From Acidobacteriota bacterium (GTDB lineage: Bacteria > Acidobacteriota > UBA6911 > RPQK01 > JAJDTT01), in assembly GCA_022827025.1 (NCBI GenBank), contig JAJDTT010000068.1, positions 1 to 51,273 of the forward strand: a stretch of DNA of 51,273 nt, given 5' to 3'. Shown piece after piece: positions 1,728-3,439 of this stretch (the stretch's first letter is position 1; each line of letters begins with the position of its first letter). The position numbers and the translations under genes are program-made. A model generated the notes under the pieces. It was not told the DNA's origin. It ran no database searches and saw only the letters and a program-made list of their open reading frames with translations.

Positions 1728-1757
1728 TTGACAAAATCATGAACGCCAACCTATTAT
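1728..1757 (+). promoter_or_regulatory. sigma70-type promoter for the riboswitch-thrC transcript
   Basis: A perfect -35 box TTGACA (1728-1733) and a near-consensus -10 box TATTAT (1752-1757) are separated by 18 bases. The predicted transcription start, about 1764, lies just before the SAM-I aptamer, which is where such a promoter should be. Confidence 0.8.
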
Positions 1758-1770
1758 TCCATTTCTTGTC

Positions 1771-1881
1771 CTTATCGAGAGTGACGGAGGGATCGGGCCC
1801 TAGGATGTCACGGCAACCGGCCCTTGAATGGTACGGTGCCAATTCCCGCAGACGGGTTCGCCCGCTTGTCTGAAAGATAAG
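1771..1881 (+). promoter_or_regulatory. SAM-I (S-box) riboswitch aptamer
   Basis: Recognised by the conserved S-box blocks in order. These are CTTATC-GAGAG at the 5' side of P1 (1771), GGAGGGAT then CGGCAACC (1811-1818), GGTGCCAATTCC-GCAG, and TGAAAGATAAG closing P1 (1876-1881 pairs exactly with 1771-1776). The aptamer binds S-adenosylmethionine. In this class SAM binding normally stabilises P1 and allows the downstream terminator to form, giving an OFF switch. It follows a strong promoter and precedes a terminator hairpin and the threonine-synthase-family gene. The switch direction is inferred from the class and from the pairing options described for the terminator. Confidence 0.93.
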
Positions 1882-1895
1882 CCCGGTTGCGTGGG

Positions 1896-1926
1896 AGCCC
1901 TTTCTCAGCGGGAAAGGGCTTTTTTG
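1896..1926 (+). terminator. riboswitch expression-platform terminator
   Basis: A 9-bp stem AGCCCTTTC (1896-1904) / GAAAGGGCT (1912-1920) is followed by an uninterrupted T run and TTGTT, a classical intrinsic terminator. AAGCCC at 1879-1884 overlaps the 3' strand of P1 and can instead pair with GGGCTT at 1916-1921. That gives a plausible antiterminator when P1 is open, i.e. at low SAM. Confidence 0.85.
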
Positions 1927-1971
1927 TTGTTTGGCCCTCCGTCCTGCCGGGACAAGGGAAAGGGAAGCAGG

Positions 1972-3231
1972 ATGAGTTTCTTGACGGGTCTGGGCTGCAA
2001 GGAGTGCGACCAACGCTACCCCGCGGACCGGAGCTTCATCTGTCTCGAGTGCTTCGGCCCGCTGGAGGTCCGGTACGACTACGAGAAGATCGGGGCCCGT
2101 CTGAACCCCGCCAAGATCGCCAGGCGGGCCCCGAACCTATGGCGCTACCGGGAGCTGCTGCCCTTGGATGGAGAGCCGGTGACCGGGTTCCACTCCGGCT
2201 TCACTCCCCTGATCCGGGCGGACCGGCTGGCTCGCCGGCTGGGCCTGAAGGAACTCTATCTCAAGGACGATTCGGTCAATCATCCCAGCTTCTCCTACAA
2301 GGACCGGGTCGTCTCCGTCGCCCTGAGCCGGGGGAGGGAGTTGGGGTACGAGGTCTTCTCCTGTGCGTCCACCGGCAATCTCGGCAACTCGGTGGCGGCC
2401 CACTGTGCCCGGACCGGTCTTCCCTGCCTCATCTTCATTCCCGAGACGACGGAACCCAGCAAGATCCTCGGCTCCCTCATCCATGGGCCCGAACTCGTGG
2501 GCCTGAAGGGCAACTACGACGACGTGAACCGGCTCTGCGCCGAAATCGGCGACCACTACGGATGGGGCTTCGTCAACGTGAACCTGAGGCCCTACTACAC
2601 CGAAGGGGCCAAGACCCTGGGCTACGAGATCGTGGAACAGTTGGGCTGGCGCCTCCCCGACCACCTGGTCCTTCCCACGGCCGGAGGGACGCTCCTTCCC
2701 CGGGTCGTCAAGGCGCTCGACGAGGTGGTGCAACTGGGTTGGGCCGACGGGCACACCAAGATTCACTGCGCCCAGGCGGCCGGCTGCGCTCCCGTGATCC
2801 GGTCCCTCCATCAGGGACTCGACTACATCAATCCCGAGAAACCGAACACGGTGGCCAAAGCCATCGCCATCGGCGACCCGGCCGACGGCCCGTACGTGCT
2901 GCAGGACGTTCGCCAATCGGGCGGATGGGGCGAGATGGCCGAAGATGAGGAGATCCTGGACGCCATCCGGCTCCTGGCCGAAACCGAGGGCATCTTCACC
3001 GAGCCGGCCGGCGGGACCACCCTGGCCGTCACCATCAAGCTGCTCCACCAGAACCGGATCCGGCCCGACGAATCGGTGGTGGTGGGGATCACCGGCAACG
3101 GGTACAAGAGCCAGGATGTCTTCATGGGAAGCGCCCGGATCTCGAACGTGATGCGCCCGAACCTCATGGTCTTCCGGGAGTGGTACGAATCCCGGGAAGA
3201 AGCCCTGGCCGGGGCCTCGGCCGCCGTCTGA
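1972..3231 (+). CDS. thrC: threonine synthase family PLP enzyme under SAM riboswitch control
   Basis: A fold-type II PLP enzyme of the threonine synthase family, which converts O-phospho-L-homoserine to threonine and phosphate in the cytoplasm. The start is ATG 1972 behind a GGGAAGCAGG ribosome site; reading upstream would run through the riboswitch terminator. The 419-residue product opens with a zinc-ribbon-like set of four cysteines (C9, C12, C24, C27), as in the archaeal/Thermus-type enzymes. The PLP lysine is K110 in SFSYKDR, followed by STGNLGNSVAA and the glycine-rich VLPTAGGTLLPR. A SAM-I riboswitch with its own promoter controls it. This is unusual for a threonine gene, so the in vivo reaction could be a homoserine-phosphate branch feeding methionine rather than plain threonine supply. 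Family assignment is strong; the exact product is an inference. Confidence 0.88.
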   Translation: MSFLTGLGCKECDQRYPADRSFICLECFGPLEVRYDYEKIGARLNPAKIARRAPNLWRYRELLPLDGEPVTGFHSGFTPLIRADRLARRLGLKELYLKDDSVNHPSFSYKDRVVSVALSRGRELGYEVFSCASTGNLGNSVAAHCARTGLPCLIFIPETTEPSKILGSLIHGPELVGLKGNYDDVNRLCAEIGDHYGWGFVNVNLRPYYTEGAKTLGYEIVEQLGWRLPDHLVLPTAGGTLLPRVVKALDEVVQLGWADGHTKIHCAQAAGCAPVIRSLHQGLDYINPEKPNTVAKAIAIGDPADGPYVLQDVRQSGGWGEMAEDEEILDAIRLLAETEGIFTEPAGGTTLAVTIKLLHQNRIRPDESVVVGITGNGYKSQDVFMGSARISNVMRPNLMVFREWYESREEALAGASAAV

Positions 3232-3347
3232 GCCCAGCAAGAGTCCACGTCGCACCGAGACCCCGTCCACACCTGCTGGAGTGCCGGACCGGCGGCGGCC
3301 GCCGCGTTGATGTAGCGCCTTCCGTTCGGTTATATTCGATCGCCGTT

Positions 3348-3420
3348 GGCGGTGTAGCTCAGTGGTCAGAGCAGGCGGCTCATATCCGCCGAGTCGGGGG
3401 TTCGAGTCCCTCCACCGCCA
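3348..3420 (+). tRNA. tRNA with CAT anticodon (tRNA-Met or lysidine-modified tRNA-Ile2)
   Basis: A full cloverleaf: acceptor GGCGGTG/CACCGCC, D arm GCTC..GAGC, anticodon stem GGCGG/CCGCC with loop CTCATAT (anticodon CAT at 3381-3383), T arm GGGGG-TTCGAGT-CCCTC and discriminator A73. The 3' CCA is not encoded. The G1-C72 pair rules out a typical initiator. The D and anticodon arms resemble bacterial tRNA-Ile2(CAU), the TilS substrate, but elongator tRNA-Met shares most of these features, so sequence alone does not decide. Confidence 0.93.
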
Positions 3421-3439
3421 TGCCAAATAACCGACCGGA

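Follow-up and report, generated by a model that had tools for sequence, protein, structure and literature searches.

We propose that the unit at 1728-3231 of the window (the whole 51,273-nucleotide stretch of Acidobacteriota DNA analyzed here) is a metM gene under SAM-I control, the product of which is very probably, on comparative evidence, an O-phosphohomoserine-dependent homocysteine synthase. The SAM-I and metM arrangement is known from Streptomyces and is here extended to other phyla; the local peculiarity of the window's genus is a sulfur carrier that is unlinked to metM and probably shared. In the pathway that we envisage, scarcity of SAM would let the leader fold as an antiterminator, so that metM is transcribed; with SAM bound to the aptamer, the terminator at 1893-1923 would form and transcription would stop. 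MetM, a PLP enzyme descended from threonine synthase, would take O-phosphohomoserine, eliminate the phosphate and add sulfur from a thiocarboxylated carrier at the gamma carbon, yielding homocysteine that a methyltransferase would convert to methionine.

The SAM-I leader and its gene

The unit comprises the following features, all on the forward strand.

1728-1757, +: sigma-70-type promoter, TTGACA-18-TATTAT, 11/12 consensus positions, conserved in genomes G001-G003
1769-1883, +: SAM-I (S-box) riboswitch aptamer, RF00162, 79.6 bits by covariance model
1789-1906, +: predicted antiterminator, from the minimum-energy fold of 1765-1908 (prediction only)
1893-1923, +: intrinsic terminator stem-loop, fold energy -21.2 kcal/mol, z -3.6, with a T-run to 1926
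1972-3231, +: metM-like gene, 419 aa, N-terminal zinc ribbon and PLP-dependent threonine-synthase fold (PALP, E 3.4e-68)

The aptamer matches RF00162 over the full length of the model (positions 1-108), well above the gathering score of 44.4 (E 3.3e-17; 95.7 bits with a purpose-built model of our own), and is the only such match in the 5.3-Mb genome. The sequence-only reading had claimed a SAM-I riboswitch here, with promoter, aptamer, antiterminator option, terminator and gene in one stretch; the covariance search bears out the riboswitch, and all of the parts were found, the antiterminator as an in silico structure. Promoter-like sites numbered two against a shuffle mean of 0.2, and the single terminator-like site is not above its shuffle mean of 1.2.

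The expression platform between aptamer and gene consists of the terminator and, by fold prediction, the antiterminator. When the transcript ends at 1908 the 3' arm of the terminator is still unmade, and conserved parts of the aptamer base-pair with 1892-1906 in the minimum-energy fold: GGGA (1789-1792) with 1903-1906, GGGC (1795-1798) with 1897-1900, and CCUA (1799-1802) with 1892-1895. Because this fold ties 1789-1802 to the 5' arm of the terminator, an antiterminator exclusive of both the aptamer (at P3) and the terminator (at that arm) is available in silico. A first candidate, 1843-1849 with 1891-1897, reaches no further than the terminator's weak base, and the stronger pairing was preferred to it. 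From promoter to start codon the leader is nearly identical across four congeneric genomes, the window's included, and all four keep the complete promoter-aptamer-terminator-gene unit. A 467-aa reading frame from 1828 reflects a mechanical choice of the first ATG, which is located inside the aptamer, and we place the gene at 1972-3231.

We note two further observations on this region and on its riboswitch class. A tRNA-Met gene (anticodon CAT; Met or Ile2) lies at 3347-3421 of the window, between metM and hemB, and the same tRNA adjoins hemB in the congeners and in the f5 family. Elsewhere, two RF00162 matches above threshold, in genomes G028 (C692; L088:2299-2401) and G010 (C60; L089:3276-3380), have altered cores, which read GGTGCCAAAGCC / GGTGCCACAGCC, then GACGATGCGG / GAACGATGCGG. 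Both precede AAA-ATPase-like genes, with an integrase some kb away in one case, and they may represent a variant SAM-I class that has a different role.

Neighborhoods of metM relatives and the sulfur carrier

Gene neighborhoods were compared at 81 named loci (80 relatives and the actinomycete Nonomuraea). SAM-I precedes metM at 28 of them, its end lying 44-1235 bases from the metM match, and a chance association is ruled out because every one of the 28 SAM-I matches is upstream and on the coding strand. Among 40 genomes, 12 of the 13 that carry metM have SAM-I upstream of it. A sulfur carrier gene stands directly downstream of metM at 59 of the 81 loci; this adjacency is absent at 22, some of which are cut by contig ends. 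The order in Nonomuraea is SAM-I, metM, carrier, cold-shock gene and groEL, which we take to be that of the Streptomyces metM locus as well. In the acidobacterium G028 the carrier gene also follows metM directly, while operons of Binatota/'Deltaproteobacteria' run SAM-I, MoeB-type E1 adenylyltransferase, metM, carrier and a cysM-like gene, several of them with a small NIL-domain-like protein (assigned by eye). At two acidobacterial loci hom stands between SAM-I and metM; the related f5 family has lysC after metM and no metO adjoining it; and the order in G023 (L081:885-5765) is hom-thrC-thrB-metM-lysC, with no riboswitch detected there. Altogether the SAM-I/MetM pairing was seen in Acidobacteriota, Binatota/'Deltaproteobacteria', Planctomycetota, Omnitrophota and an actinomycete other than Streptomyces.

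Two loci are unusual in their composition. On a Candidatus Binatia contig (L124:5024-6601), metM and the sulfur carrier are apparently fused in one 526-aa frame, and the G016 bin holds two SAM-I-metM-lysC copies (C398/L073 and C337/L074), 73-74% identical to the window protein, through either duplication or a mixed bin.

In the window's genus metM has no metO as a neighbor, and the MetO-like carrier detected in the genome is part of a larger protein. Four ThiS-family matches were examined (C64, C134, C195 and C227). Three were rejected as MetO, C64 being a ThiS-ThiG fusion (thiamine), C134 lying within a MoaD/MoaE-type operon and C195 adjoining CoxL-type oxidoreductase genes; C227 alone closely resembles MetO/CysO, and no further MetO-like carrier came up in the genome at E<=1e-6. 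Residues 1-91 of this 475-aa protein form a MetO/CysO-like carrier with GG at its end, and MoeB and rhodanese domains come after them; the operon of this protein also encodes an Rrf2-type regulator, CysM and a JAMM protease. In Mycobacterium tuberculosis, cysteine is synthesized through CysO-CysM-Mec. The C227 operon resembles that system in bringing together carrier, E1-type adenylyltransferase, JAMM protease and CysM, and differs from it in that the carrier is fused to MoeB-rhodanese and is proposed to serve MetM too.

We infer that the N-terminal domain of the C227 fusion is probably the sulfur donor for MetM; being encoded with CysM and the JAMM protease and likely feeding MetM, this single carrier may supply cysteine and methionine synthesis alike. 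In the congener G001 no carrier was found. A wider picture, in which a single fusion-borne carrier in these Acidobacteriota, perhaps trimmed by the JAMM protease, feeds both CysM and SAM-regulated MetM, and in which phosphohomoserine is the sole methionine entry in a wide range of uncultured phyla, is put forward tentatively, as possible and somewhat short of probable. We would also consider a sub-variant that overlaps our explanation, in which MetM uses free sulfide and not a thiocarboxylated carrier. That neither the window's genus nor the f5 family has metO adjoining metM speaks for it, yet we think it unlikely, given that the genome retains the carrier-E1-rhodanese fusion with its JAMM protease and CysM, and that most relatives keep the carrier adjacent.

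Distinguishing MetM from threonine synthase

Reportedly, MetM is homologous to threonine synthase and converts phosphohomoserine to homocysteine with a thiocarboxylated carrier, MetO (Hasebe et al. 2024, AEM 90:e01247-24). PMC12172450 confirms the MetM enzyme and cyanobacterial homologues, and places a SAM riboswitch upstream of metM in Streptomyces albulus. The unit described here shares with MetM/MetO of S. albulus a threonine-synthase homologue, a SAM riboswitch upstream of it and an associated sulfur carrier family, and the Nonomuraea locus has the same layout and falls in the same clade as the window protein. It differs in that the window's genus has no metO by metM, the carrier probably being the MoeB-rhodanese-fused one on another contig.

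In a 120-row tree, the product of a quick search and with some long branches, the window protein falls in a 95-row clade (SH-aLRT 100) that includes the Nonomuraea homologue (L178; 46.9% identical), which stood in for S. albulus MetM. The PDB threonine synthases all fall outside this clade, as do the genome's other threonine-synthase-like paralogues. Fold, PLP lysine and presumed substrate, phosphohomoserine, are those of canonical ThrC (PDB 1uim, 2zsj, 6cgq, 2d1f, 1e5x). The clade differs, however, throughout its members from the solved bacterial enzymes: KDRGM is replaced by KDRVV, STGNT by STGNL, S-V-N-P-x-R by N-[LI]-R-x-[YF]-Y (in short, N-x-R-x-x-Y) and SW by DG. Some of the replaced residues are presumably binders of the substrate phosphate. 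The window protein thus neither has the residues typical of ThrC at the aligned columns nor groups with the solved enzymes, and shares its clade with an actinomycete homologue linked to SAM-I and metO. Judged by clade and residues, the gene is of the MetM family and not an ordinary threonine synthase, and for that reason it most likely makes homocysteine from phosphohomoserine.

Several points count against the MetM reading, among them the score on the thrC model, the lack of an adjacent metO in the genus, and the threonine activity of a Microcystis relative. The window protein scores 249 bits on NCBIfam thrC (TIGR00260), above the cut-off of 167, and this model cannot separate ThrC from MetM because the Nonomuraea metM homologue passes it too, at 270 bits. 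The Microcystis homologue, 51.6% identical to S. albulus MetM, is reported to make threonine in vitro and to fall short of full MetM function in the cell (PMC12172450), and members of the clade may therefore differ in function. In addition, genome G007 (91% complete; metM-like gene C204/L079) shows no threonine-synthase match besides this gene at E<=1e-20, and no PF01053 or PF02574 match; either that genome is incomplete or its enzyme is bifunctional, and some members of the clade may do both reactions. The Microcystis data and G007 together favor an enzyme that would be a homocysteine synthase with bound carrier (or sulfide) and a threonine synthase with water. For the unit in the window we regard this as distinctly unlikely, since a dedicated ThrC is present in its genome and in the congeners, and SAM is the sole control.

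The same in vitro activity (PMC12172450), the TIGR00260 score and the G007 gene set might alternatively indicate a second ordinary threonine synthase, with SAM control tuning the flow of phosphohomoserine to threonine. That is very improbable: a separate canonical ThrC (L004, at C225), scoring well above the thrC cut-off, groups with the solved threonine synthases; residues conserved in those enzymes are replaced across the window protein's clade; most relatives are flanked by sulfur carrier and E1 genes; and more threonine synthesis at low SAM would worsen the methionine supply. The genome encodes two threonine-synthase-like proteins besides these, L003 and L005, the former a PRK08197-family paralogue. 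The genome's PRK08197-family 'threonine synthase' paralogue at C209 (L096:5598-6800), at 632 bits well above cut-off, has no SAM-I, and its homologues are common in relatives.

Entry into methionine synthesis

Our statements of gene absence rest on family searches, and in the window's own genome (G000, 98.8% complete) these gave no match to MetX, MetA or HcyBio, leaving the host apparently without the usual homoserine-acylation route; candidate homocysteine methyltransferases are encoded. Across 40 relatives, metM and homoserine acyltransferases seldom occur together: an acyltransferase is found in 1 of the 13 metM genomes versus 21 of the 27 that lack metM (Fisher p 3.5e-5, in a test that takes no account of shared ancestry, with MetX counted at E<=1e-20 and genomes of varying completeness). 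Five relatives without metM have SAM-I in front of metX, of a PF01053 gene or of a hom...PF01053 operon. Lying before metM in some genomes and before metX/PF01053 genes in others, SAM-I therefore marks the homocysteine-forming step in this phylum, whichever enzyme performs it. The aptamer class and the transcription-attenuation layout are those of SAM-I at metX/metY/metB-type genes, as used by the metM-less relatives; here, in contrast, the controlled enzyme descends from threonine synthase.

Plant cystathionine gamma-synthase uses phosphohomoserine, and the one PF01053 enzyme of the genome (C195) might do the same to make homocysteine, the metM-like gene serving otherwise; this is hardly credible, as the C195 enzyme best resembles methionine gamma-lyase/CGL models, below their cut-offs, no SAM-I precedes its gene, and the metM carriers G007, G015 and G016 (two of the three less than 90% complete) have no PF01053 match at E<=1e-20.

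The lack of MetX, MetA and HcyBio matches and the near-exclusion with acyltransferases therefore strongly support the phosphohomoserine-to-homocysteine branch that the sequence-only reading had offered as one alternative, as do clade, residue replacements, neighboring carrier genes and the published MetM; the activity is predicted, and the branch is a known one, not new. The surprise which that reading implied in SAM-I standing before such a gene is lessened, metM under a SAM riboswitch having been reported already from S. albulus; a literature search, with most subscription papers outside its reach, found no earlier report of SAM-I on threonine synthase outside Streptomyces. The other alternative, that SAM tunes the threonine/methionine split of phosphohomoserine, would result from this, given that a further thrC, the canonical one (L004/L095), is encoded elsewhere in the genome, but it is not necessarily the main role.

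The pairing of SAM-I with MetM reaches well beyond Streptomyces, and it could explain methionine synthesis in genomes that apparently lack the first dedicated step. Many genes annotated as 'threonine synthase' are probably homocysteine synthases; a preceding SAM-I, a carrier gene that follows and the motif replacements described above identify them. If the shared-carrier reading is true, cysteine and methionine synthesis would be coupled in these bacteria via one small protein.
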